Below are positions 1 through 38,094 of a stretch of DNA of 38,386 nt, in pieces. Below the pieces are notes generated by a model that had not been told where the DNA came from, searched no databases, and worked only from the letters and a program-made list of their open reading frames with translations. Position 1 is the first letter of the stretch; each line of letters opens with the position of its first letter. The position numbers and the translations under genes were made by a program. The DNA comes from Methanobacteriota archaeon (GTDB lineage Archaea > Thermoplasmatota > Thermoplasmata > RBG-16-68-12): assembly GCA_005878985.1 (NCBI GenBank), contig VBMA01000093.1, forward strand, positions 1 to 38,386, given 5' to 3'.

Positions 1-1303
1 CCTCTTTCGCCTCGGCGTCGAGCTTGACCTTGACCCACTTGTTTTCCCCGTAGAGTTCGTCGAGGACAAAGCGCCGGAGCGCGTCGACCGCCTCCTTGTG
101 GCCCCCGTACGTCTCGTCGAGGCTCTCCGCGGTCGGCAAGTCCTCGTTCAGGTAGATCCGAAGGATCTCCTCCGCGGCCTTGCGGTCCGGACGCGGGATC
201 TCGATGATCTCGTCGAACCGCCCCGGCCTCAAGAGGGCCGGGTCCACGAGGTCCGCGCGATTCGTCGCGCCGATCACGAAGACGTCGTGCAGCTCGACGA
301 GTCCGTCCATCTCGCTCAGGATCTGCGCGATGATGTTCTTGTGGACGCCGGACGTGTCCATCATGCCGCGGACCGTGAACAGCGCCTCGATCTCGTCGAA
401 GAAGACGATGCTCGGCTTCTTCTCGTGCGCCTGGCGGAAGATCTCCTTGATGATGCGCTCGCTCTCCCCGACCCACTTCGAGAGGACGTCCGCGATGCTG
501 ACGTTGAAGAACGTCATGTCGTTCTCCGTCGCGATCGCCTTCACGAGGAGCGTCTTGCCGCAACCCGGGGGACCGTAGAGCAGAATCCCGCGCGGCGCCT
601 GGAGGGAGATCTGCGCGAACAGCTTGGCCTCCTGGTACGGGAGCACGACGACGTCCTTGATCCGCTCGATCGCCTCCATGAGCCCGCCGATCTCGCCGTA
701 CGTCACGTTCGGCTTCTCGCCGAGGAGGAGGGACTTGACCTCGAGGTTCGGGAGGATGTCGAGGACTTCCATCGTCGGAGGCAGGACGCCGATCTGGAAT
801 CCGGGCTTGAGCTTCTTGAAGACGTTCTTGTCGCAATCGATCAGGCGCTTCTCCATGTCCCCTTCCACGGAGATCACGAGCTTGCCGTCCAGCATGTCGA
901 CGACCTTCGCGATCACGCCCTCGTTGCGCACCGCGCTGCCTTCCACGATCGCGTACGTCTGCGGGTGCACCCAGACATATTGGCCGACGCCGAGCTGCGA
1001 CTTGTCGACCAACCCGGTCGAGACCTTGAGCAGTTCCGTCGCGCGCGCGACGACGACCTGGTTGCCGTCGAGGTCGGGGCCTTCCTTGCGGACGACGTAG
1101 GCATAGAGGAGCGGCGGTTGCTTGATCTTGTTGAACTTGTCCTCGTACGCCTTCAGGCGGTACTCCCGTTCCTCGATCTCGTAGCGGAAGGAGTGGAGGT
1201 CGCGCTCGTACTGCCGACGGAGGCGATCCATCTTCTCCTCGAACTCGTCTCGGACTTCTTCCGCCGACTTCGACACCTTTCCGTCGCCCTCCTCACTCGC
1301 CAT
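1..1303 (-). CDS. Proteasome-associated AAA ATPase (ARC/Mpa-like or PAN-like), C-terminus beyond left edge
   Basis: Manual reverse-complement translation from ATG at 1303 (absent from ORF track because truncated): MASEEGDGKVSKSAEEVRDEFEEKMDRLRRQYERDLHSF... coiled coil, OB-like region, Walker A GPPGCGKT, Walker B IVFFDEIEALF, SRH ATNRADLVDPALLRPGRFD; then ILRIYLNEDLPTAESLDETYGGHKEAVDALRRFVLDELYGENKWVKVKL. Confidence 0.9.
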   Translation of the reverse strand, partial: MASEEGDGKVSKSAEEVRDEFEEKMDRLRRQYERDLHSFRYEIEEREYRLKAYEDKFNKIKQPPLLYAYVVRKEGPDLDGNQVVVARATELLKVSTGLVDKSQLGVGQYVWVHPQTYAIVEGSAVRNEGVIAKVVDMLDGKLVISVEGDMEKRLIDCDKNVFKKLKPGFQIGVLPPTMEVLDILPNLEVKSLLLGEKPNVTYGEIGGLMEAIERIKDVVVLPYQEAKLFAQISLQAPRGILLYGPPGCGKTLLVKAIATENDMTFFNVSIADVLSKWVGESERIIKEIFRQAHEKKPSIVFFDEIEALFTVRGMMDTSGVHKNIIAQILSEMDGLVELHDVFVIGATNRADLVDPALLRPGRFDEIIEIPRPDRKAAEEILRIYLNEDLPTAESLDETYGGHKEAVDALRRFVLDELYGENKWVKVKLDAEAKE

Positions 1304-1600: not shown

Positions 1601-4600
1601 TTACGTGTAGCCGCCCTGGATCAATTTCTTGATGTACGGGGTGAGGACCCGCGCGAGGCCCATGTCCCCGTCCCAATCTTCGATCTGGTCCCAGTGATGA
1701 TCTTCCATGTCCTTGATGCATCGTTCGATCTGGGTGGTCCAGCTCTGCGAACCGTCGCCTTCGATCCGAGCCGCGAGCACGAGCCACTTGCCGCGGCCGA
1801 TCAGGATGTGCATGTGGCCGACCGTCATCTCGTTCAGGTCGGCGTAGTCGTCCCCGCGGAGCGCGTCCTTGACGAACGCCTGCACCGCCGTGAGCATGCC
1901 GCTCAAGATATCCATGTCAACGTCGGGCCTCAGCCGTCGGGTCTCGTGCTTGATCAGCAGGCCGTCCTTGTGGTTGAGGAGAAACACGTCCTCGACGATC
2001 GCGTCGCTCGTCTTCGCGGCGGTCGTTGGCGGCGGGGCGGCGGGCTTGGACGCCTCGGCCCCGCGTCGACGCAGGATGAGGAACGCGGCGGCGGCGACTG
2101 CCGCGCCGACGAGGACGAGGATCCACCAGAATTGCGCCAAGAAGCCCGGGGCGGTCGAGAACTGGAAGGTCTTCGACGACACCATCGTGTTCCCGGCGAG
2201 ATCGCGTGCGGTCGGATCGATCACGACGAAGTAGGTCGCCCCGGAATCGAGGTCGCGCGCCGGGACGAACGTCATGACGCGGGAATCCGAACTCCACACG
2301 GATGCGCCGTCGATGGCGGGCGTGATCGAGAACGCGGCCTCGACGGAGGTCCGGTTCATGGGCTCGTTGAACGTCACGACCACCCAAGGCGTCAGGTTCG
2401 TGTTCGACCCGACAGGCCGGGAATCCGTCACGAACGGCTTCGTGACATCGACGACGGTCCATGTGTCGTTCGTCGCGGGAGGCGTCTCAACGTTCCCCGC
2501 GCGATCCCGCGCGATCGAGCGGAAGGCGTAGACGTGGGGGTCTTGCCCAACGAACGTCGCGCCGGTCGCCGTGGTGTACGTATATCCTACGAGATCGGTC
2601 CACGGATTCGCTCCATCTTTCCACTGAATGAGATAGGCCGCGATGTCCGTCGTACCGACGACGGGGCCCCATGCGATCGCAAATTGGAGGGTGTTTTCGT
2701 ATCTCGGTAACGTCGTCACCGCGGACTCGGGTGGCGTGACGTCCACGATCGTCCACGACTCGTTTCCGGACACCGCTTCCGTGTTCCCTGCGCGGTCTGT
2801 GGCGACCGAGCGGAACTGGTACGTGTGGCCATCCTGGCCGGTGAACGTCCCCGAGGTCGTCGCGGCCGTCGCGACGAGCCAGTCCGTCCAGCCGGCCCCG
2901 TTGTCATTCCGTTGAATGTGGTAGGTCGCGACGTCCGTCGTCCCCTCCGTCGGTCCCCATTGGACGATGAAGGAGAGGGATGTCTCGTATGTCGGCAGGG
3001 CCAACGTGCGGGACGTCGGAGCGGTCGTATCGACCCTCGTCCAGGTGTCGTTCGCGGCCGGGGGGACCTCACGGTTGCCCGCGTGGTCCGTGGCGATCGA
3101 CCGGAAGGCATAGATCCCTTGCCCCGAGGCCGTGAACGTCCCGGACGTCGCGGTCGTGCCGACGAGCCAGTCCGTCCAACCGGCGGCTCCGGCATTGTAT
3201 TGGATCGTGTACGATGCGATGTCCGTCACGCCTACGTCCGGTCCCCACGACACCAGGAACGCGCTCCGGTTTTCGTATTGGCCCAACGTATTCACATGGG
3301 AGCCTGGCCCGACTGTGTCGACCATCGTCCACGTATCGTTGGCAGACGGTTGGGATTCCTGGTTCCCCGAGGCATCCTCCGCCGTCGTGGCGAACTCGTA
3401 TACCCCGTCGGCCGACGCCGTGAACGAGAGGAAGCCGAAGTTCCCGCCGGGTTGGACGGAGTACTGGATCCAGATCGCGCTTCCGGCCGTCCGGTACCAC
3501 AGGGTGACGTTGACTACCCCGGTCCCGTTCCCGTCCGAAGCGCCGTACGAGATCCAGAAGGTGAGCGTGTTCTCATACGTTGGCAAGGGGCTGGCCGCGG
3601 ACGTCGGGGCGTCCTTGTCGACCATTACGAACGATTCCGTGTGGCTGGTCCCCATGTCGACGGACCGCGGGTCGTTGGTGAAAGCGTAAGGCGGGTACGT
3701 CACGCTGACCTGGGTCACGTTATCGGTCGGGATCGGAGAGTTCACGTAGATGCGGTCCGTGACGAGGATCCAGGATTGGATGCCGGAGGGGGCCGTGCGA
3801 TCCCAGATCGTCGTGCTTCCGTCCGAGACCTTGATGCGTGCCCCGCCGACCGGCATGAAACCGTTCGGCCAGAGCGCGTCGACCTCAAGGAAGTTCCGGA
3901 CCGTCAGATTCCCCGCGGCCATCACCGCGAGCTTCGTGAACGGACTGTTCACCGCTATCGCTTGCGTGTAGTTGTCCACGAAGAACTCGTAGCTCCCGAT
4001 GGACGACAGCGTCGCGTTTTCGGCCGTGAAGTGCATCTTAAACGTCTTGTTGCCGACGAGGTAGTATCCGTCCGCATAGGACGTCTGAATCGGGGGACCG
4101 GTGCCCGCTCCGCCTTTCGTCACGCTCGAAATCGTATCCCCCGCGGAGAGGCCGTTCAAGACGAGCCCCGAGATAACGCCGTATGCATCTCCGCCGCGGC
4201 CACCGTTCGTCCCGACGACGGAGTCCCCACCTCGGCCGCCTTGCATCGTGGTCACCCCGTTCGATGAGAAGTCCGGAGACGTGTATACCGCAGCGATTCC
4301 CGCCGCCGTGCCCCCGTTGCCTCCGAATCGCGTGCCGATGCCTCCGGCCCCGGCGGTGATCGTATCGAGTTGGTTGAAACTGGCCTGGGTCTTGTTGAAC
4401 GCACCGTCGTTGTTTCCGAAGAAGATGAGTCCGGTCGCGTTGCCGCCGTATCCGCCGCGCACGCTGCGGCCTCCATCGCCTGCAACGAGAGTCGCCAACG
4501 TGTTGGCATGGACCGTCGCCGGGCCTGCGACGTAGAAGACCGCGACCCCGTTCGCCGCGCCGCCGGTCCCACCGTTCCCGGAGCCTCCACCCGCGACCGC

Positions 4601-5911
4601 CCCGTTTCCGCCGATGCCGCCCCGGATGTTCTGGAGAGAGTTACCACTCGTATCGACGTTTCTCGCACTGATCAGGAACACCGCGTCTGCGTCGCCGCCC
4701 GTTCCGCCGTTCCCGTTCGTCGTCCCACCGTTTCCACCGAGTCCCCCGCCGCCGCCGGTTACGCCGCCGGCCGTGTTCGTGAATAACTGGCTGATTCCGA
4801 CTGAATTCGCCACTTCGATGGCAACGGCCGTGCCCGCGTCTCCGCCTCGGCCACCGGCCGTCGTCGTGGCGCTCCCGCCGCCCGATCCCCCGTTTCCGCC
4901 GGTCATGGTCGTGACCATGTTCCACTGGATCATCGGGCTCGTCGTGCCGACGACGACGATGCCCGCGGCGGAACCCCCGTTGCCGCCCCGACCTCCCGTG
5001 CCTCCGGTGTTTGCCTGACCGTCGCCCCCCCGTCCTCCACTCACGCTGTCGACGGCGTTGCTCGTGATCGAAGCAGACGGTGCCCCAGACACGTAGATGC
5101 CGGCGCCGATCGAGCCGTCACGACCCGGGGCCCCCGGACCAATCCCGGCGGCTCCTGCGGAGCCGCGGATTCCCTGAACCGTGTTTCCGTCAATCGATGC
5201 GGTCGCCCCGCCCGTTAGGAGGATTCCCATCGCGAACCCGCTGCTCACGTTCGTGATCGCGTTGCCCGAGATCGTCGGGAAACCGGGCTGCTCGATCTGG
5301 ATTCCGACCGCGGTGTTGTTGATTGCGTTGCCGGAAATCTGGACGCTGGATGCGTTCGCGTACACGCCCACGCTCGTCGCGCGGATGATCGTGTTGCTAG
5401 ACACATAGCTCGATGACCGAAGGAACACGAATCCGGCTCCCGCTTGGATGACCTTGTTGCTGATGATGTCCGGAGAGCTGTCCGTCGCCGAGATCGCCCG
5501 GTCGACGCGATCGAACGTCGACCAGGAAACGGAGCCGGATGAGCTGGCGTTGAATTGAATGCCGCCCCACGGGGTCAGGGATGACGTGTTCGCGGCGAAG
5601 GTGATCGGTTTCGCCGGGGTCCCGTCGGCTTTCAGCTGCCCGTCGACGAAGAGGTGGACGCCCGGATCGAACTTCACCGTCGTCCCGGGCATGATCGTCA
5701 GGGTCCGAGGAGCTCTGATCGTGACGGCACCCGTCGCGATGTAGACCGTGTCGGCCACACCCCACGTCACGTCCGTCGTGTACACACCTCGGACGTACGT
5801 GGTGGCGCTCACGGTCGGGGCGCTGACGAGGAGAACTGCCCCAATCGACCCGAGGAGCGCGAGGGCCACCGCCACACTTCTCATCGAGAACCGCGAAGGG
5901 GGGGTGCGCAT
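1601..5911 (-). CDS. Large surface protein: signal peptide, parallel beta-helix with glycine-rich inserts, four Fn3-like repeats, Big_5/Ig-like domain, single TM, C-terminal cytoplasmic domain (longin/roadblock-like?)
   Basis: 1436-aa ORF; N-term MRSVAVALALLGSIGAVLLVSAPTVSA; repeated SGNxI..N beta-helix rungs; GGRGGDGG-type inserts; repeated DTTAPTS..LPTYE..L.F.V.WGP...TDIA.Y.IQ..; FWWILVLVGAAVAAAAFLILRRRG TM; tail EDVFLLNHKDGLLIKHETRRLRPDVDMDILSGMLTAVQAFVKDAL. Confidence 0.9.
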   Translation of the reverse strand: MRTPPSRFSMRSVAVALALLGSIGAVLLVSAPTVSATTYVRGVYTTDVTWGVADTVYIATGAVTIRAPRTLTIMPGTTVKFDPGVHLFVDGQLKADGTPAKPITFAANTSSLTPWGGIQFNASSSGSVSWSTFDRVDRAISATDSSPDIISNKVIQAGAGFVFLRSSSYVSSNTIIRATSVGVYANASSVQISGNAINNTAVGIQIEQPGFPTISGNAITNVSSGFAMGILLTGGATASIDGNTVQGIRGSAGAAGIGPGAPGRDGSIGAGIYVSGAPSASITSNAVDSVSGGRGGDGQANTGGTGGRGGNGGSAAGIVVVGTTSPMIQWNMVTTMTGGNGGSGGGSATTTAGGRGGDAGTAVAIEVANSVGISQLFTNTAGGVTGGGGGLGGNGGTTNGNGGTGGDADAVFLISARNVDTSGNSLQNIRGGIGGNGAVAGGGSGNGGTGGAANGVAVFYVAGPATVHANTLATLVAGDGGRSVRGGYGGNATGLIFFGNNDGAFNKTQASFNQLDTITAGAGGIGTRFGGNGGTAAGIAAVYTSPDFSSNGVTTMQGGRGGDSVVGTNGGRGGDAYGVISGLVLNGLSAGDTISSVTKGGAGTGPPIQTSYADGYYLVGNKTFKMHFTAENATLSSIGSYEFFVDNYTQAIAVNSPFTKLAVMAAGNLTVRNFLEVDALWPNGFMPVGGARIKVSDGSTTIWDRTAPSGIQSWILVTDRIYVNSPIPTDNVTQVSVTYPPYAFTNDPRSVDMGTSHTESFVMVDKDAPTSAASPLPTYENTLTFWISYGASDGNGTGVVNVTLWYRTAGSAIWIQYSVQPGGNFGFLSFTASADGVYEFATTAEDASGNQESQPSANDTWTMVDTVGPGSHVNTLGQYENRSAFLVSWGPDVGVTDIASYTIQYNAGAAGWTDWLVGTTATSGTFTASGQGIYAFRSIATDHAGNREVPPAANDTWTRVDTTAPTSRTLALPTYETSLSFIVQWGPTEGTTDVATYHIQRNDNGAGWTDWLVATAATTSGTFTGQDGHTYQFRSVATDRAGNTEAVSGNESWTIVDVTPPESAVTTLPRYENTLQFAIAWGPVVGTTDIAAYLIQWKDGANPWTDLVGYTYTTATGATFVGQDPHVYAFRSIARDRAGNVETPPATNDTWTVVDVTKPFVTDSRPVGSNTNLTPWVVVTFNEPMNRTSVEAAFSITPAIDGASVWSSDSRVMTFVPARDLDSGATYFVVIDPTARDLAGNTMVSSKTFQFSTAPGFLAQFWWILVLVGAAVAAAAFLILRRRGAEASKPAAPPPTTAAKTSDAIVEDVFLLNHKDGLLIKHETRRLRPDVDMDILSGMLTAVQAFVKDALRGDDYADLNEMTVGHMHILIGRGKWLVLAARIEGDGSQSWTTQIERCIKDMEDHHWDQIEDWDGDMGLARVLTPYIKKLIQGGYT

Positions 5912-9247: not shown

Positions 9248-10654
9248 ATGCAAGGGGCGATCGAAGCTCTGCTTTCCGGTCTCGTACTGCGAGGCCTCGG
9301 CCCGGCCCTCTCCGGAATCCTCATGGCCGCTCCGCTGAAGAAAGTCGCCCGGGCGCAGCTCAAGAAGATCTACGTCCTCGATGAGCGCGGCGAGATGGCC
9401 GGGGAATACATCCTCGATCAGGATTGCCCGATCGACTACAACGACTTCCTGAAAGTTTTGCCCGATGAAGGGATCGGCGATCGCGATTCCTTGTTCGTCG
9501 GCGAATATGTTTTCACAGCATTCCAGAGCGGCAAGTTCGTGTTTGTCCTCCTGTCGCGCGGCCAACTCGCGCCCGAGGATGTCAACTGGACCGCCCTCCT
9601 CCTCACGGCCGCGGATTCGCATCTCGCGTCCGCGGCGAATCGCCCTGCGCCGGCCCGCGCCGCCGAACCGAGACCGGAGGTCGACAAGGGAATCGCGGAA
9701 CGCGATGCGCGCCTCCAAGCGAAAGAAAAGTCCCTCGCCGAGCTCGAGGCGAAGCTCAAGGCGGACGCAGCCAACCTGAGTGGACGCCAGGAGGAGCTAG
9801 ACCGTCAGAAGGCGAGGCTCGCGGCCCTCGCGGACTATTCCACCCAACTGCAGGATGCGGTGTCGAAGGGCGCCTCCCGGTCGGCGAAGACCCTGGAGAT
9901 CGCGGAACAGCTCGCGACGAGCTCCAACGAGGATTCGAAGAAGGCCGAGTCGAAGGCCAACTCGGACGCGCGACAAGCATTCGAGCAAGAGCGGAAAGCG
10001 CTCATCGCGGCGAAGACCGAGCTCGAAACTCGCTACCAAGAGGGTTCCGCCAGAATCGCCCAACTCGAAAAGGAGGCGAAGGCCTCGGTCGCCTTCCTCG
10101 AAAAGGAACGGGCGGAGACCGCGGTTCGGTCGGCGGAAGAAGAGAAGACCCGCCGCGAAATCGAGAGCCGGGTGGCCGACCTGAGTCAGCGTTTCACATC
10201 AATGGCGAAAGAGCGGCTCGTGGCCTCGCATCGACCCCCCGGCGAGGTCTCTGATGAAGTTCGGAAGGCGATGGAAGGCGAGAAGTCCGAGCTCGCGCGG
10301 GAGCGCAAGTTCCTGCAACGTCGGGCGATCGAACTCCTGGACCGCGAGGAGCGGGTCCGGGACCGCGAAGCACGGGTCGAGGAACGAGACCGGGATTTCG
10401 GGCGACGGGAGAAAGATCTCTCCACCCGCGAGGAGGATCTAGACCGGCAACGGACGCTCCTCGCCCAAGCGAAGCCGCAGGCGCCCGAGATCCGCGCCGA
10501 ACCGGACGAGGCGAAGAAGGACATCGAGCGGCGCGTGAAGATCATTCAGCAGAAGGCCCTGGAGCTGCTGGACCGGGAGGAAAAACTCCGGAGGCGAGCG
10601 GCGGAGCTCGAGGCGATGGAGGCCCGGCTATCCGGGCGAGTGACGGTCGAGTGA
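9248..10654 (+). CDS. Coiled-coil protein with small N-terminal domain shared with the 4428-aa protein; conserved C-terminal tail
   Basis: 468-aa ORF preceded by TTAAATA box (9170-9176); N-domain KKIYVLDERGEMAGEYILDQDCPIDY; heptad coiled coil; RKFLQRRAIELLDREERVR and RVKIIQQKALELLDREEKLR near the C-terminus. Alternative ATG at 9323. Confidence 0.88.
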   Translation: MQGAIEALLSGLVLRGLGPALSGILMAAPLKKVARAQLKKIYVLDERGEMAGEYILDQDCPIDYNDFLKVLPDEGIGDRDSLFVGEYVFTAFQSGKFVFVLLSRGQLAPEDVNWTALLLTAADSHLASAANRPAPARAAEPRPEVDKGIAERDARLQAKEKSLAELEAKLKADAANLSGRQEELDRQKARLAALADYSTQLQDAVSKGASRSAKTLEIAEQLATSSNEDSKKAESKANSDARQAFEQERKALIAAKTELETRYQEGSARIAQLEKEAKASVAFLEKERAETAVRSAEEEKTRREIESRVADLSQRFTSMAKERLVASHRPPGEVSDEVRKAMEGEKSELARERKFLQRRAIELLDREERVRDREARVEERDRDFGRREKDLSTREEDLDRQRTLLAQAKPQAPEIRAEPDEAKKDIERRVKIIQQKALELLDREEKLRRRAAELEAMEARLSGRVTVE

Positions 10655-19900: not shown

Positions 19901-22900
19901 TCCGACCCCGCCATCCAGGTGACGGTGCACAACCCGATTCCGCCGCCGTGGTGGCAGTCCTCCTACATGCTTGCGATCTTCCCCATTGGAATCTTGTTGG
20001 GTGTTGCAATGTTCGCGCAACGACAGCGCTGGAGGCCCGCGAAGGCCTTCCTCGTGGACGACAGCGGGAGAATGCTCAGGGAATTCACCCTGGACCCGGC
20101 CTGCCAGGTCACGTACGACCAGGCGGTCCAGGCCGGCATCTTGGACGCGGTCGACAAGCCGATCAAGATCACCAAGTACCACGGCCAGACGGTCCGCGGG
20201 GACGCACTCGCGGTCGTGCTCCTCGCCTACGGACCGGTTACACGGGAGCATGTCGAGTTCGCTCGGGAGATGCTCGTCCAGATTCAGGACAAGTTTGAGG
20301 ACGGCGTCAAGCAACGTCTGGAAGAGGCCCGTGCCCAAGAGGCCAACGTGGCGACGCAGATGAACGACCTCGCGACCCGCCGGACCGAAGTCGAGACCCG
20401 TGCGGCCGAAGCCCAAACGATGGCCCAGCAATCGGAGGCCGTCCAGGCGAAGATCATCGCGGACACTGACGCCGTCGAGGCGAAGGAACAGGATCTTCGA
20501 CGACGAGAAGAGGAGCTGGCGAACAACCGCAGGGCCATCGATGAGCTGGCCCGCCAAACCGAAGAGGACCGGAGCTCAATCGACCGACGCACCGGGGATC
20601 TTCAAGGCCGGGCGGCCGAAATCGCCGCGAAGTCCGAGGCGGTCGAGGCTCGAGAGGAAGCGGTCAGCGCGCTCGAGCGAACCCTTCGGGACCGAGACGA
20701 GACCCTCGCGACGGGAGAGGCCGGCCTTCAGGAAATCCGGGAGCGCCTCGCGACCGATACCTCGGCGGTGCAAGCGAGACTCGACGAGGCCGGGCGGCGT
20801 GAGGAAGCCCTCGGCCGCGATCAGGCGAACCTCTCGAATGCCCGCGAAAAGTTCCAGGCGGAGCAGCGAGAGCTGCTCGAGTTCAAGCGTTCCATCGATA
20901 GCCGGGTCAGCGCCGTCGAGGAGAAGGAGACCGAGATGGACCGCCTATCGAAGGACGTCGCCGCGCGAGAGGCCCGCGTGGTGCCCGAGGAGGCGCGCCT
21001 CGCAGAGCGGGCGAATGTCGCTGAGCAGAAGGAAGCCGACCTGAAGGCCCGCGAGGACAGGCTGACAGCGAGAACCCAAACGCTCGACGGGCGCGAGCAG
21101 GAGCTCAGCAGCCGCGAGGTCGCGCTCAACGAGGACCGCGTGGTCCTCGCGGAGGCTCGGGGCGCGTTCGAGTCGGATCGGAGAGAATTCGAGGAGCGCA
21201 AGAACCAAGCCGACGAAGAGGCGCGCCGACGCCGGAGCGACCTGGATGGTCAAGCCAAGACGGTCGGCGCGAGTCAGCTTCGCTTGGCCCAGGAGAAGGA
21301 GAGCCTCGAAGCCGCGCACAATGAGCGGAGCCAAGCCATCCTATCCCGGGAGATCGAGCTCGAGGCCCGCGAACAATCCCTCCAAGAGAACGAAGAAGCC
21401 AACCGCACCCAGGCGGACGAAAACGCTCGGCGCTTTGGCGAACTGACCGGTCGAGAGGAATCCCTCGAAATCGAGGCAGCGAAGGCCGACAAGGTCCGGA
21501 GCGACCTCGATGCCCGGAAGGCGGATCTCTCGAGCCGCGCGACAGAACTCGAGGAAGAGGCGGCTCGATTGCGGGGGGAGGAGGCAAAAGCGGCCGAGGA
21601 GAGACGGACCTGGCAGACGACTTTGCAGTCTGAGCAAGCGTTGCTCAAGGACCAGCGAGACGCGTTCGAGCAGGAGGCCGCTTCGGCCCGTGCCTCGTGG
21701 GCCGATCGCGTGATGCGGATCGAGGCGCGCGAAGTCGACCTCGAAGAGAAAGAAGAGAAGGTCCGGACCGACGTCGACTGGGTCGCCCGAAGCGACGAGG
21801 ACCTCAAGCGCCGCGAGAAGGCCGTCGAGGAGGCGGGGCGGTCCGCTGCGCAGGTGCAGGCCAGCGCCGAACGCGCCACGAAGGAGGCCGAACAGCGATT
21901 CCTCGAGATCGAGTCGCGCGAACGCGCCCTTCGAGAAGAGGCCGCGCACGAAGCGATCGAACTCACCAAGCAGACGGAGGCGTTGAAGCAATTCGAGACC
22001 GAGCTGAACTCGAAACAGGCCGACTTCGAGAAGGAGCGGACGGCGCAGACCCAGCGACTCCGGGAGACCGAGAACGAACTCCATTCAAGAGCTGGCACCC
22101 TTGAGGCGAAACGCCGCGACCTCGAGGAACGGGAGAGCCGAATCGCGGGCATGGAGGAGTCTCTCCATCAGGGCGACGAGCGGCTTCAGCGGGAACGTGC
22201 GGACCTGCAGGCGACGGCGAAACAGCTCGAATCCCAGCAGCTCGAACTCGCGCAGCTCAAAGACCGATACGAGTCGGAGGCCACACGCGTTCGCACTGAA
22301 GCGGAGGGCATGCGGCAATCCGTGGCGGCCAAAGAATCCGAACTGCAAGCCGAGCGGGAGCGGATCGAACGGGATTCGTCCGCCCTCCAGGAGACCCTCG
22401 GTGCGAAGGCGAAGGAGATGTCGGTCCGAGAACGAGCGCTCACCGCGCGCGAGGCAGAGCTCCAGACCGAAGAGCAAGAGCTCGAGGCCCGCGGACGAGA
22501 GCTCGAATCAAAAGAACGCCAAGCCGAAGCCCACCTGACCGAGATGTCTGCGCAGGCGATGGCGCTCATCCGGCGAGAGCAGGACTTGAACTCCCGCGGG
22601 ACCCAGGTCGAACAGACCATGCGTCGGTTCGAGTCGGAAGCGACGGAGAAACGGCGCGAATGGGAATCCCTTCAGACGAGCCTGAAGTCTCAGCAGGCAC
22701 AATTCACCGCGTCGTCGGAATCTCGCGCCGGTGATCTCGCGAAGAAAACGGTAGAGCTCGAGGCACGGGATCGCAGCCTTCGAGCGGCTTTGGCCGCGAT
22801 GGAGGTCGAACGATCCAAACTCGATGCTGAGTCAAAAGCCCAATCCGCCAAAAGCACCGAAGCGGAGGCGGCTTGGCGACGATCGGAAGCCCGTCTCGCG

Positions 22901-24205
22901 GAGCTCAAGACGAAGGAAGATGAGTTGCTCCGCGCCCGTCAGTCGTTCGAATCGGACCGCTCCACCTGGTCCGCCCGACGAACCGAGGAGCTGAAACAAC
23001 TCGAGGCGACACGGGATGCGGCCGCGCAACAAGCGCAGCAGACGGAGCGGCTCGTCGCGGAGTCCCAGCGCCGAGCCCTCGTCGCAGAAGAGGCGGAACG
23101 AGCGGCAAAACGCCAGACCGCCGACCTCGCCGCTCAACAGGCGCGACTGGAGACCCGCCGGGCCGAAGCCGAGAAGGCGGAACGCGACGCGCAGGGTCAT
23201 CTGGCCCAGTTGCAGGAGGCCTCACGGAAATTGGCGGTGAAAGACATGGAAATCGCTACGGCCGTCAAGGATCTCGAGGCGCGGCAGTCGAAGCTGGCGG
23301 CCGCGGAGAGGGATTCCGCGGCAATCCAGGGGGAGTTGCGCTCCCGAAAAACGGCCTTGGACGAAGAGGCCGCGCGAATCACCACGTCGTCGAATCAAAT
23401 GACGACGCGCCAGAAAGATCTGGAGTCGCGGACGGCCTCCCTCGAAGCGAAGATGGGCGAAGCCTCAACGAAAGAACAGGCTCTCGCGACGGAACTTCAG
23501 CGTGCGGACAACCTCATGGAGGACCTCACCAAGAAGGACCGTGATCTTCGCTCCCGCGAAGAGGCCGCGAAGGCGTCCGAGAAGACCATGGCGGCGCGGG
23601 AGACGAGCCTCGTCGCACGCGACGCCGAGGTCCGGGACGGGATGCGGGGTCTCGAAAAGCTCCGCAAGGAAATCGACGACCAGCGCGGCGCCACCGAAGA
23701 AGACCGTCGAACCGCGAAGACCACCCGCGCTGAGGCCGAAGCGACGAAGCGCGAGGCGGACAAGATGCGGGCCCAGGCCGACGAAATGCAGTCGGAGGTG
23801 AACAAGAACCTCCGGTTCCTCCAGAAGAAAGCCCTTGACGTGTTGGATCAGGAGGAGAAAATCCGGGCTCGCGTCGCCGCGATTGAAGGGCAGGAGAAGT
23901 CCCTCGACACCCGGGCGGAAATCCTCGAAGGGAAAGAGCGGGCCCTCGAAGCGGACCAGGCTGCCATGGATTCCAAGGTCGCGAAGCTTCAGGCCGAGAT
24001 TGATCGGCTGCGCGGGAGCATTGCCGATGCGGTGAAATCCGGAGGCCCGACGACGGCCGCGATGGAAGAGTGGAAGAAGGACGTCGAGAACCGGGTGAAG
24101 ATCATCCAGAAGAAGGCCATGGACCTCTTGGACCGCGAGGAAAAGCTCCGGAAGAAGGAAGAGGAACTCCGAGCGCTCGCGAGCCAGCTCGGCGCGAAGC
24201 CGTGA
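10919..24205 (+). CDS. Giant 4428-aa transmembrane protein: signal peptide, about 3000-aa repetitive ectodomain, one TM helix, cytoplasmic domain, about 1300-aa coiled coil
   Basis: Single uninterrupted ORF (GTG start); signal MKARTAFLVAFVMLATAALVVVSQS; recurrent VTFTMATNxLxWxGTLTI / GxWDTSGAGSxFTxGTSTVTMxG / LNASNGFxxLxVSGTV repeats; TM WWQSSYMLAIFPIGILLGVAMFAQRQRWRPAK; heptad-rich REREL-type coiled coil to C-terminus. Confidence 0.93.
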   Translation: MKARTAFLVAFVMLATAALVVVSQSMPDPLAEFRSPDGRLTIPGRALTPELQRLLFHGNDLQPFTNVTFLLPARSSYPTERLVAISFTSPNLNVFVHPRQAPETWGSAINHVLRVWFPPIDWHEVAVGFRDSIRDGVGWFFDLFTMNARADALTVDSTTVALVDPAAATCTTSQSATAGDNAVLVMLSNRGPTAYTSVTYGAASLSLIPGTATSGTGIVRTEMWFFQGVIPSGAQTMTATLVSGTAKQVCATVLLGGVLATTPTAGGTTASGTTANPSISISPASAGELAFAVLGIRGTTAPTAVTGTAATAMSLYGIAPTQCAAAPTTFCGAGADMPFPGTAITWTDGNATDWVISAVRVLPTPNCGVASGNCYRIGAGGTWATGANWSNTSGGAACSCTPVATNDVIFNATPTGTTTLAAATTIASIDMTGFTGTLDTTASNWALTVNGPFAIQGTVQARSSTITVTGDVDVLTAGTIVNLGASSWTVNGLWTNLSTSVSWAAGTSTVTIRDAGSGPLTFAALAGGTNEFNNLTLDASVTPSITYTMAVNALRMGGTLTIRNSTGGATGPTILTTSASNLGITAGALTLSTFGSLTANGSTVVVNGNLNVSAANGYVVMGTSTWTVTGTWTNASTSASWTPGTGTVTFTSATGGTMTFAGTNLPSNEFNNISFTSSAASAQTFTMGTRALIWGGTLTISDGSSTTALATANLGLTGGALVVGNGGILTANASTVSVSSVAMTGGTSGTITLTSSSFTSTGNWDTSGAGSVFTKGTSTVTMNGVANIAILNAGNNFNNLVLSAAGTVTQTGLVDVSGTLTVSAGSVLASGTFTLTVATLAANMAGGITGGAAGTKTITGNVSIAASGYFSFGATTWNFGGSWTNSTTSGSWSAGTGTVVFNSGSSRTMTFANLGASEFNNVQFSPTAAATFTMATNGLRWGGTLTLNNNAALATANLALTGPGGNLTVNNGATLTAGTSVVSVTNVTMTGGTSGTITAAGSWTVAGNWDTSGAGSVFTAASSSVTMSGAAKTVKTLNASNGFGALTISGTVTAASATTLAGLLTVSGTFDTTATNYGLFVGGGLTVSGAAAVLRSNGSTVSVAGNVSVNNPAGYITSGGAGSWTVSGSWTNASTSASWNFASPITFNSSASQTMTFAVLPGAAAEFNDIAFNSGASTVTFTMATNRLIWSGTLSVQGGAGATTLATSNLTLTGGALTIGNGGVLTANASAVSASNVTMTGGASGTLTLTTGAWTVTGNWDTSGAGSTFTGGASTVTMTGAGTTVKLLNASNGFAALAVSGTVSAASALTTAGLVTVSGMLDTTGANYGLTIGGGLTVSGASGVLRSNASIVSVAGNVNVNNAAGYITSTSGGSWTASGSWTNASTSASWGFVAPITFNSSASRTMTFGNPTQEFGGNVTFNSGASTVTFTMATNSLAVGGTLTISGGAGTTTLNTSGSNLAINAVTLVVNAGGALTANGSSITVTSMDTHLGTFTVGASNVVVNASGGSMNITQTVNNLTVSPAVSTTFTGSLTWTGTLAFTNAGTVAFGTNSLTSSGAATFTFASATITMSSGNWDTSSATTFTATSSTVTFSGTGNLRIGGSASFNALTVSGGTRTLQSQLTTAGLLTLSGGILAKGTSALTANAGLTMSGGALTSTSGGVSITGNVSIAAASYIVFGSETWTVSGSWTDNSTSASWSIGTATVAFNASSAQTITFAALPGNAPEFYNVTFNSGASTVTFTMMTNALAWSGILTVQGGGGATTLATGNLGLIGGAIAVGNAGVLAANASAVSISGLTMIGGASGTLTLTTGSWAVSGNWNTSGPGSVFSKGTSTVTLTGSGQTVSILNASNGFYNLTVSGTVTQSTAVDVTNSLAVSGTLTTGGFNITGGSNLFVPDGGTLAAGTSTSTFTNVTMTGAVSGTITLTGAWTLGGSWNSTGAGSVLNSGTSTVTFTGTSQTVSLASGQMFYNLTIGGTVSINSSVTVASTLTVNNGAVLTKTGQTIAFNTLTQNGTGSIVDGAITVVNFSVTNSDGTNLTAIGVFTTWTIDADYTWTHSSTVATSTITFTIGGNTSGQRFNVTKDAVDFTNGLVNGSGQIVFAMLGSDPVVDVRLTSPCGGNRYWIGGTGSWSQTAHWADSTGGANGCSVPNSSNPVFFDANSGGGTVTITLNVAVTSLNTTGWAGTIAIGSFDLAVSGDIVHAAGIISIGASSNAGLTATGTLTLLGSAVLDGSGVASLVTIAGDTSITSASAYFRMGSGTWTFGGSWSNSSTSTNWVAGTGVVIFDSSSSQTLTFANLAGDEFHDVTFQSAAGSGTIVFSMAATGLRWSGLLAIQDSVGSTTTLATSNLSLTGGSLAVGNSGTLIASTSSVAVVNVTMTGGASGTLTLTSGSWTVSGQWNTSGTGSTFARGTSTVTMSGTSASVATLDANNGFTNLAISGTITQSTALDVRGTLSVTGTLTTSGNNITGGANLTISGGGSLIGTASSIVVSGVTMNDAGTNSISLTIGSISASGSWDTSGSSSAFTAGSSTVTLTAATGTIAIGPAQSLATLIIAGSVTMASPLTVSSLTIISGGLAKGPHALTVNGNLTLAGGYLTSTSGSASIAGNVNVSSSSSYIAFGSGTWIISGNWTNASTSASWSAGSAVVTFDATTDQTMTFAGANLAGNEFSTVEFDSGSSTTTFTMTSDGLAAQTITIQGGPGTTTLTTSGASLPILANALTVDVGGALAANASILTVRSLNTASGAFAAGTSTVVVSISGGSINVPQTLHDVVVSPGISTTFASSITWSGALTLTDSTTTFDGNLTSNGLAVLNLGTSTISIAGSWDTSSAASLTSIGSAVTFTGDSGTITLGAGQRFATLTIAGTVALGSDLTADTLTVTSSSVLTMTSHGIAFNSLAVNGTIADGPVNVTDLSVTNNDTTALVTIAGFREWSRGSSYAWTHTSSESSQTITWSIGGNAAGIPYTVTKDGSSFATGTVNSSGQVVFTMLGSDPAIQVTVHNPIPPPWWQSSYMLAIFPIGILLGVAMFAQRQRWRPAKAFLVDDSGRMLREFTLDPACQVTYDQAVQAGILDAVDKPIKITKYHGQTVRGDALAVVLLAYGPVTREHVEFAREMLVQIQDKFEDGVKQRLEEARAQEANVATQMNDLATRRTEVETRAAEAQTMAQQSEAVQAKIIADTDAVEAKEQDLRRREEELANNRRAIDELARQTEEDRSSIDRRTGDLQGRAAEIAAKSEAVEAREEAVSALERTLRDRDETLATGEAGLQEIRERLATDTSAVQARLDEAGRREEALGRDQANLSNAREKFQAEQRELLEFKRSIDSRVSAVEEKETEMDRLSKDVAAREARVVPEEARLAERANVAEQKEADLKAREDRLTARTQTLDGREQELSSREVALNEDRVVLAEARGAFESDRREFEERKNQADEEARRRRSDLDGQAKTVGASQLRLAQEKESLEAAHNERSQAILSREIELEAREQSLQENEEANRTQADENARRFGELTGREESLEIEAAKADKVRSDLDARKADLSSRATELEEEAARLRGEEAKAAEERRTWQTTLQSEQALLKDQRDAFEQEAASARASWADRVMRIEAREVDLEEKEEKVRTDVDWVARSDEDLKRREKAVEEAGRSAAQVQASAERATKEAEQRFLEIESRERALREEAAHEAIELTKQTEALKQFETELNSKQADFEKERTAQTQRLRETENELHSRAGTLEAKRRDLEERESRIAGMEESLHQGDERLQRERADLQATAKQLESQQLELAQLKDRYESEATRVRTEAEGMRQSVAAKESELQAERERIERDSSALQETLGAKAKEMSVRERALTAREAELQTEEQELEARGRELESKERQAEAHLTEMSAQAMALIRREQDLNSRGTQVEQTMRRFESEATEKRREWESLQTSLKSQQAQFTASSESRAGDLAKKTVELEARDRSLRAALAAMEVERSKLDAESKAQSAKSTEAEAAWRRSEARLAELKTKEDELLRARQSFESDRSTWSARRTEELKQLEATRDAAAQQAQQTERLVAESQRRALVAEEAERAAKRQTADLAAQQARLETRRAEAEKAERDAQGHLAQLQEASRKLAVKDMEIATAVKDLEARQSKLAAAERDSAAIQGELRSRKTALDEEAARITTSSNQMTTRQKDLESRTASLEAKMGEASTKEQALATELQRADNLMEDLTKKDRDLRSREEAAKASEKTMAARETSLVARDAEVRDGMRGLEKLRKEIDDQRGATEEDRRTAKTTRAEAEATKREADKMRAQADEMQSEVNKNLRFLQKKALDVLDQEEKIRARVAAIEGQEKSLDTRAEILEGKERALEADQAAMDSKVAKLQAEIDRLRGSIADAVKSGGPTTAAMEEWKKDVENRVKIIQKKAMDLLDREEKLRKKEEELRALASQLGAKP
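12540..19090 (+). repeat. Degenerate repeats within the giant ectodomain (about 745-bp period in the central block)
   Basis: Eight copies of a [TV]xTFTMxTNxLxWxGTLTI-like motif at about 12556, 12970, 13711, 14458, 15204, 16142, 17877 and 18970; three consecutive spacings are about 741, 747 and 746 bp. Confidence 0.8.
20032..20300 (+). other. Juxtamembrane cytoplasmic domain homologous to N-domain of the 468-aa protein
   Basis: FLVDDSGRMLREFTLDPACQVTY (giant) vs YVLDERGEMAGEYILDQDCPIDY (468 aa): 8/23 identities with conservative changes; both followed by coiled coil. Confidence 0.7.
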
Positions 24206-36348: not shown

Positions 36349-36744
36349 ATGTCCCACAGCTACGAGAGCGGAAGACAGGCCATGGCCGAGCTCGGCTCGA
36401 AGCAGCCACATGAGCTGCTGTTGATGCTGGGTGGCCTCCTGGCGGTCCTCCTGACCCTCGCGATGTATGGGATCCAGTGGGTGACTACGCCCGGCATTGC
36501 GCAGAGCCAGTATGCTACCGTGGCGACGGCGGTAATCCTGAACGTCGTCCTCGGAGCGGCACTCTGGGCCTCCTCGGCGATCACGCGGAAGAACCTGATG
36601 AACGGCGCCATCGTGGCCGGTGTAATCAGCATCGTCCTGATCTACTTCGGTGGTCGGGCCGGCCAGATCGGCGGCATCGTCGGGATCCTCGGCGCGATCC
36701 TCGCCGCGGCAAAGCCGTATCTCCCCTGGTCCCGACACGATTGA
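36349..36744 (+). CDS. Small membrane protein, paralog 1 of tandem array
   Basis: MSHSYESGRQAMAELGSKQPHELLLMLGGLLAVLLTLAMYGIQ...; three to four TM segments. Confidence 0.82.
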   Translation: MSHSYESGRQAMAELGSKQPHELLLMLGGLLAVLLTLAMYGIQWVTTPGIAQSQYATVATAVILNVVLGAALWASSAITRKNLMNGAIVAGVISIVLIYFGGRAGQIGGIVGILGAILAAAKPYLPWSRHD

Positions 36745-36788
36745 GCCGACCGTTTCGGCTTGCCGTTCGAACCTCCCAGCGGAGCCCT

Positions 36789-36812
36789 TCCCCTTTTTGG
36801 ATTGTTTTCTCT
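36789..36812 (+). terminator. Putative T-rich archaeal terminator (repeated at about 37395-37418)
   Basis: CCCCTTTTTGGATTGTTTTCTCTTCC directly downstream of paralogs 1 and 2. Confidence 0.4.
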
Positions 36813-36892
36813 TCCGGCTTTCGTTGATTCGCCGTGCGCCGCCCGGGGCGAACACCGCGAAATCACCCCGAAACCGGGCCTATTTTGGTGAT

Positions 36893-36931
36893 TGATTCTC
36901 ACCGCGTGCCACCCGGGTCGAAACCCATATC
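36893..36931 (+). promoter_or_regulatory. Putative promoter of paralog 2: TGATTCTCAC-N23-CATATC (repeated at 37499-37537 for paralog 3)
   Basis: See paralog 1 promoter. Confidence 0.55.
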
Positions 36932-36960
36932 GCCCGGATGGCGGGTAGGCCGCCGAAGCT

Positions 36961-37350
36961 ATGACCCAAAGCTACGAGACAGGAAAAGCCATGGTCGAAC
37001 TCGGCGCGAAGCAGCCGCACGAACTGCTGCTGATGCTGGGCGGCGTGTTGGCGATCCTCCTGTCGGTGGCAATCTATGGGATCCAGGCGGCGAACCAGGG
37101 AATTCAGCCGAGCCAGTACAGCACGGTCGTGACGACGGTGGTCATCAACGTCGTCCTCGGCGGAGCTCTCTGGGCGTCCGCGGCGATTACGCGGAAGAAT
37201 CTGATGAACGGAGCAATCGTGGCCGGCGTGATCAGCATCATCCTGATCTACTTCGGAGGTCGGGCCGGCCAGATCGGCGGCATCGTCGGGATCCTCGGCG
37301 CGATCCTCGCCGCGGCAAAGCCGTATCTCCCCTGGTCCCGAGACGATTGA
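36961..37350 (+). CDS. Small membrane protein, paralog 2 (hybrid copy)
   Basis: 129 aa; 5' part near-identical to paralog 3, 3' part near-identical to paralog 1. Confidence 0.85.
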   Translation: MTQSYETGKAMVELGAKQPHELLLMLGGVLAILLSVAIYGIQAANQGIQPSQYSTVVTTVVINVVLGGALWASAAITRKNLMNGAIVAGVISIILIYFGGRAGQIGGIVGILGAILAAAKPYLPWSRDD

Positions 37351-37566
37351 GCCGACCGTTTCGGCTTGCCGTTCGAACCTCCCAGCGGAGCCCTTCCCCT
37401 TTTTGGATTGTTTTCTCTTCCGGCTTTCGTTGATTCGCCGTGCGCCGCCCGGGGCGAACACCGCGAAATCACCCCGAAACCGGGCCTATTTTGGTGATTG
37501 ATTCTCACCGCGTGCCACCCGGGTCGAAACCCATATCGCCCGGATGGCGGGTAGGCCGCCGAAGCT

Positions 37567-37956
37567 ATGACCCAAAGCTACGAGACAGGAAAAGCCATGG
37601 TCGAACTCGGCGCGAAGCAGCCGCACGAGCTGCTGCTGATGCTGGGCGGCGTGTTGGCGATCCTCCTGTCGGTGGCAATCTATGGGATCCAGGCGGCGAA
37701 CCAGGGAATTCAGCCGAGCCAGTACAGCACGGTCGTGACGACGGTGGTCATCAACGTCGTCCTCGGCGGAGCTCTCTGGGCGTCCGCGGCGATTACGCGG
37801 AAGAATCTGATGAACGGAGCAATCGTGGCCGGCGTGATCAGCATCATCCTGATCTACTTCGGAGGCCAGCCGGGCACGATCGGCGGCGTCGTCGGGATTC
37901 TCGGCGCGATCCTCGCCGCGGCAAAGCCGTACATGCCCTGGTCCCGCCGCGACTAA
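37567..37956 (+). CDS. Small membrane protein, paralog 3
   Basis: 129 aa; diverges from paralog 2 only after LIYFGG (GQPGTIGGVVGILG...MPWSRRD). Confidence 0.85.
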   Translation: MTQSYETGKAMVELGAKQPHELLLMLGGVLAILLSVAIYGIQAANQGIQPSQYSTVVTTVVINVVLGGALWASAAITRKNLMNGAIVAGVISIILIYFGGQPGTIGGVVGILGAILAAAKPYMPWSRRD

Positions 37957-37978
37957 GCCACCGGAAACCTACCGTTCA

Positions 37979-37998
37979 CGCCGCGCGTACGCGCGGCG
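37979..37998. repeat. Perfect 20-bp palindrome in convergent intergenic region
   Basis: CGCCGCGCGTACGCGCGGCG; a second inverted repeat GGTCTGG-CCGCG-CCAGACC lies at 38056-38074. Confidence 0.7.
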
Positions 37999-38094
37999 CA
38001 TTCTCCTTCGTCGAGATGGAATGAGGAAGGTCACGTTCCATCAGCGCAGCAAGGGGGTCTGGCCGCGCCAGACCTGCGAAGGCAACGGATCGAC

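Follow-up and report, generated by a model that had tools for sequence, protein, structure and literature searches.

The window, by which we mean the whole stretch of 38,386 nucleotides analysed here, comes from a soil archaeon and encodes a coiled-coil protein of 468 amino acids (the small protein) followed by one of 4428 amino acids (the giant), and both carry an 18-residue sequence twice close to the C-terminus. This locus raises the question whether the shared sequence is a specific site or generic coil, and what such a site might do at the end of two proteins of so different length. The first-pass annotation had given the motif as [FI][LI]Q[KR][KR]A[LIM][ED][LV]LD[RQ]EE[KR][LIV]R, with two copies in each protein. 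Translation confirmed all four copies (Table 1), and none was present elsewhere in the coils of the two proteins.

Table 1. Position and basis of the features of the small and the giant protein in the window.
Feature	Nucleotides	Amino acids	Strand	Content or basis
Small rod protein, 468 aa	9248..10654		+	N-terminal hydrophobic stretch, longin/roadblock-fold domain, coiled coil, tip module
Small protein, predicted longin/roadblock-fold domain	9341..9649	32-134	+	AlphaFold model and Foldseek PDB matches
Small protein, motif 1 KFLQRRAIELLDREERVR	10307..10360	354-371	+	Translation, motif matrix, selection
Small protein, motif 2 KIIQQKALELLDREEKLR	10538..10591	431-448	+	20 aa before C-terminus
Giant, 4428 aa	10919..24205		+	Signal-like segment, repeat-rich ectodomain, membrane helix, longin domain, ~1290-aa coiled coil, tip module
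Giant, N-terminal hydrophobic signal-like segment		about 5-23	+	Hydropathy
Giant, predicted membrane helix	19961..20017	3015-3033	+	Hydropathy; conserved in relatives
Giant, longin-domain counterpart	20018..20326	about 3034-3136	+	Profile match 110.5 bits, E 5.9e-32; query profile A4 includes the giant's own sequence
Giant, heptad coiled coil to motif 1	20342..23812	about 3142-4298	+	Hydrophobic periodicity
Giant, motif 1 RFLQKKALDVLDQEEKIR	23813..23866	4299-4316	+	Translation, selection, matrix scan
Giant, motif 2 KIIQKKAMDLLDREEKLR	24098..24151	4394-4411	+	17 aa before C-terminus

Specificity and conservation of the motif

A position matrix was made from the copies in relatives of the small protein only and was then scanned over the giant. 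Both copies of the giant were recovered (38.8 and 30.4 bits), and the next-best site of its coil reached 10.4 bits. The best of 2000 composition shuffles scored 18.4 bits, and shuffles preserving the heptads 16.1 bits. Nearly all true copies scored 33–65 bits, and other stretches in these coils did not exceed about 4 bits; the weakest true copies, found in distant or truncated proteins, scored 19–35 bits. No PDB chain matched the motif at E<1.

The motif is under purifying selection. In the small-protein genes (n = 12), pN/pS was 0.135 for motif 1 (aa 349–373) and 0.100 for motif 2 (aa 422–452); the coil gave 0.49 and the segment between the motifs 0.585, and pS was similar throughout (0.52–0.65). 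The giants (n = 11), with equal pS across the regions, yielded 0.18 for motif 1, 0.13 for motif 2, 0.46–0.77 for the coil and 0.55 between the motifs. The suggestion that the 18-mer is a specific site and not generic coil is borne out by this difference (0.10–0.18 versus 0.46–0.77), in which pairwise values, uncorrected for saturation and shared ancestry, serve to compare regions of one gene only.

The C-terminal position of the motif, also proposed in the first-pass annotation, holds in every intact copy. The sequence D[IV]E[RN]RVK, which was said always to precede the second copy, is exact in the window and loosens in relatives to about [DE]x[DE]xR[VH][KR] (e.g. DLEHRVK, DVETRVK, DLDARVK, EVDQRVK, DAENRHK). 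Six of the 18 residues of the motif helices are hydrophobic, compared to a mean of 3.2–3.5 in the coil, a density that is equalled by about 4–6% of the coil windows. Acidic and basic charges nearly balance in the helix, which shows heptad spacing; a simple calculation of the heptad register around the motifs flips between equivalent registers throughout the coil.

Domain order and paralogy of the two proteins

An iterated profile identified one domain of about 100 amino acids that is common to both proteins and precedes the coil. Profile A4 also retrieves the giants of unsampled genomes, which is independent of the inclusion of the window's giant in this profile. The AlphaFold model of the domain, made with 26 sequences (pLDDT 81.6, pTM 0.73), predicts the order strand-strand-helix-three strands-helix. 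Almost all of the 50 matches shown by Foldseek against the PDB were longin/roadblock proteins (TM up to 0.61, probability up to 1.00, best E 0.0064), dominated by AP-2 subunits, zeta-COP, Ragulator, MglC, roadblock proteins and Ykt6/Sec22b. In Pfam (26 members) and PDB profile searches the domain matched no longin/roadblock model or solved chain, and since no sequence model recognises it, its assignment to the longin/roadblock fold rests on predicted structure rather than on sequence. For the full-length small protein, the AlphaFold model (pTM 0.22) does not inform on the tip.

The region behind this domain is a true heptad coil, as judged from its periodicity. In the giant (aa 3141–4428) the repeat is sustained, with a hydrophobic period of 3.52 and an autocorrelation of 0.44 at lag 7 and 0.27 at lag 42. 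Among 11 giants the cytoplasmic part ranges in length between 1076 and 1612 aa; their last 140 residues nevertheless align nearly free of gaps except for the extreme tail, and the spacing of the motifs is kept nearly without indels. Because the giant has an N-terminal hydrophobic segment and its predicted membrane helix stands directly before the longin domain, the ectodomain of about 3000 aa would lie outside the cell and the coil in the cytoplasm. The ectodomain of the window's giant consists of beta-rich repeats. Other repeat modules replace it in one genome of family f3 (G024) and one of family f2 (G022), and it is apparently absent in two further genomes (G003 and G023), both of which could be affected by contig ends or the choice of the start. 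The ectodomain is evidently exchangeable and not conserved in kind.

Along the cytoplasmic part, made up of the longin domain, the coil and the two motifs with about 60 residues between them, the small protein and the giant are old paralogues. Their longin domains share 18% identity; motif 2 is 83% identical between the two proteins of the window (mean 84% in relatives) and motif 1 on average 55%. With this paralogy, the motif pair was inherited once, as one tip module, and not acquired twice independently. The pairing of motif 1 between the proteins (0.55) is not clearer than that of motif 1 with motif 2 within one protein (0.61–0.64), so that an origin by internal duplication is no more than possible. 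In the tree of the longin domains, in which one f6 protein (L131) is labelled as small, the set of giants is split from the small and short proteins with a support of 0.92; as a clade of their own, the giants are weakly supported (0.65). As each set has members from families f1, f2 and f3, the two forms and their shared motif were kept in parallel from before the split of these families.

A third, shorter protein has the same domain and a short coil without the tip. It is encoded directly upstream of the small gene in many members of the genus and was not found in the window's genome. Another paralogue of 1097 aa (L027/L088, G018:C96:2336-5626) combines an N-terminus of the small type with motif copies at aa 264–301 and 958–992, and a degenerate C-terminal copy is visible by eye. 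In a further genome (G017, L036:3471-5054) a frameshift apparently interrupts the small gene upstream of its second motif, and this motif is encoded in an overlapping frame (4438-4827); an assembly error is possible.

Two other loci of the window encode putative surface or membrane proteins. A surface-type protein of 1436 aa (1601-5911, minus strand) possesses NosD and Ig-like domains and ends in a membrane helix and a cytoplasmic domain (DAIVEDVFLLNHKDGLLIKHETRRLRPDVD...), in which a likeness to longin/roadblock domains is visible by eye; G020 has a similar gene nearby. At 36374-38004, the gene of a small multi-helix membrane protein (MTQSYETGKAMVELGAKQPHELLLMLGG...) is repeated in tandem, with three units of about 606 bases each, which are 74–90% identical and have no Pfam match.

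Distribution among Thermoplasmata

All genomes available for this comparison are metagenome-assembled and many are fragmented; E-values were computed per genome. A 38-column profile retrieved the motif in 25 of 25 genomes of families f1, f2 and f3, and the 12 remaining genomes of the order gave no match. Nearly every well-assembled genome of the three families has four copies, and each of the six carriers that are at least 90% complete has at least two copies in the small protein and two in the giant or a near equivalent. The motif might have recurred in unrelated Glu/Arg-rich coils. This is not the case, as 400 genomes of the class and 394 of the phylum yielded no match beyond f1–f3 at E≤0.001; the few matches at E 0.003–0.01 in the class sample cover 11–20 columns of coil. 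The motif is confined, as far as these genomes indicate, to part of one archaeal order, which we take to be Ca. Angelarchaeales (Thermoplasmata; RBG-16-68-12 order). This assignment follows the paper on that order (PMC9038741) and the named relatives, which are genomes from soil and sediment under the labels Euryarchaeota or Thermoplasmata, among them RBG_16_67_27, RBG_19FT_COMBO_69_17 and the EA_ series.

On the two points that the first-pass annotation proposed to check by a profile search, the matches are C-terminal in intact copies and the two genes share a neighbourhood within the genus. They are also adjacent in G002. In G003, G001 and G024 they are located on different contigs, so that constant adjacency applies to the genus and G002 only.

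Beyond f1–f3, the longin profile had matches in many f8 genomes, in each a single protein of about 750 aa, and to one protein each in f23 and f6. Like the window pair, the f8 proteins combine a matching longin domain (43–71 bits) with a long coil behind it, and their C-terminal helix is conserved. Unlike the pair, they occur once per genome, show no membrane helix before the longin domain and end in a tip of their own (QVDSISEITKKLEELRAR) without the 18-mer; this form of tip is also found at the end of the f23 protein. From eight sequences, this suggests that rods with lineage-specific tips are more widespread in Thermoplasmata. Within the coils of the f8 proteins (L125–L133), conservation is highest in DRHLQINDRVTLLLEREQ (L126, aa 242–259), whose internal LLEREQ is reminiscent of LLDREE. 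The motif model has no match there at E≤10, and a relationship is not claimed.

Possible function of the tip and relation to known systems

At the cytoplasmic ends of the two paralogous rods, the motif copies and the about 60 residues between them would make up a single distal tip module, through which the rods could either co-assemble or bind one shared partner. We tentatively favour the former, an assembly from rod to rod, which in our judgement has somewhat less than an even chance. The cell membrane would anchor the giant, with the ectodomain facing outwards and the longin domain directly beneath, and the coil of the giant, probably as a parallel oligomer, would reach about 190 nm into the cytoplasm if fully extended (0.1485 nm per residue). 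The small protein would represent a short version of this cytoplasmic module (about 47 nm). The tip may then mediate helix assembly between giants, between small proteins or between the two, and the membrane-anchored rods would thereby be joined at their free ends. Six hydrophobic residues out of 18 would fit a helix that makes more contacts than are required in a two-stranded coil. A complete membrane-to-cytoplasm scaffold, in which surface giants, their ectodomains being exchangeable, and short rods as their dedicated partners both have longin-fold domains and are linked at the free ends by a shared two-helix tip code, possibly under control of the genome's Ras-like GTPases, is rather unlikely to apply in full.

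The tips of both rods may also bind the same third protein, e.g. a small GTPase or a cytoskeletal or nucleoid component. This leading alternative is possible rather than probable and accounts equally well for one motif being kept in two diverged paralogues. Longin/roadblock domains and long coiled-coil tethers act with Ras-like GTPases elsewhere, and Ras-family matches were obtained in 37 of 37 genomes of the order. The window's genome has 15, including clear Ras-like proteins; three tandem Ras-like small GTPase genes (G000:C165:21502-23296, L145) lie beside a Lon-like ATPase. However, no partner gene is linked to the locus, and Ras-like GTPases are equally present in families f4–f6, which lack the motif. 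As about 14 small-GTPase proteins per genome are moreover usual in archaea (PMC4915359), the co-occurrence is not specific and provides a lead only. In a single f2 genome (L136:932-2728), the gene of a 355-aa longin-coil protein without the motif is convergent to a Ras-like GTPase gene.

It is quite unlikely that the motifs are folding nuclei, register-setting or helix-end (trigger or capping) segments that are conserved for intramolecular reasons only. Their location at the helix end and their heptad spacing would fit such a role, and the approach to motif 2 (R-V-K-I-I-Q) resembles the trimerisation pattern R-h-x-x-h-E, with Q in place of E. A few positions suffice for a trigger, yet surface positions are conserved here too, the sequence is the same in two paralogues, and the f8 proteins of the same architecture have a different conserved end. 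An amphipathic membrane-binding helix, which the dense hydrophobic and basic residues might indicate, is very unlikely because of the balanced acidic and basic charge and the position at the rod end opposite the membrane anchor; the heptad spacing also argues against it, and nothing in the data points to lipid. Chance similarity of biased coils (E 17%, A 15–17%, R 13%, with recurrent LxxRE-like words) is practically negligible, as generic coil similarity is ruled out by the matrix, the shuffles, the selection and about 770 other genome scans of the class and phylum samples without a match. Of the docking, capping, membrane-binding or partner-binding roles first suggested for the motif, a selected site with a putative function in partner- or self-docking is thus the likeliest, and the membrane role is the part to be given up.

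The pair of a small and a giant rod appears to be undescribed. Profile searches against Pfam, NCBIfam and PDB named no family for either protein, a literature search covering mostly open-access papers found no such system, and the paper on the RBG-16-68-12 order (PMC9038741) makes no mention of coiled coils, S-layers or cell-surface terms. Little is known about the inner cytoskeleton of Thermoplasmata or about how their wall or surface is organised, and this single locus offers a testable pair, one protein of which probably reaches outside the cell and whose tip is kept while almost everything else diverges.

Compared to SMC/Rad50-type proteins, only coil matches below the cutoff (52 bits versus 567) and no Pfam head domain were found. 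Intermediate filaments and crescentin resemble the window rods in conserved rod ends and a divergent coil, and the word LLDREE recalls the LLEGEE motif at the end of the rod of intermediate filaments. The window proteins lack the head-rod-tail organisation, however, and neither a Pfam Filament match nor a PDB chain match of the motif (E<1) places them among intermediate filaments or lamins.

The pre-coil domain shares its predicted fold with the N-terminal domain of AP-2 mu, zeta-COP, Ragulator, MglB/MglC, Ykt6 and Sec22b (TM-score about 0.6). What sets it apart from these proteins is its fusion to a long coil, to which the giant adds a membrane helix and an ectodomain. The longin SNAREs Ykt6, Sec22 and VAMP7 likewise unite a longin-fold domain with a coiled coil and a membrane anchor in a single polypeptide; their order is longin-SNARE motif-membrane helix, whereas that of the giant is membrane helix-longin-coil. 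With no Pfam SNARE match and a membrane helix that precedes the coil, the giant does not belong to the SNAREs. A longin-fold domain beside a long coil in an archaeal membrane protein bears, as a resemblance of fold only, on the origin of trafficking-type domain combinations. No GRIP, FYVE or other tether domain was detected by Pfam in the window proteins. The golgins and EEA1 are eukaryotic membrane-attached rods of roughly 200 nm with conserved ends and a divergent middle, and the giant is alike in these respects; unlike them, it is predicted to be an archaeal integral membrane protein with an ectodomain.
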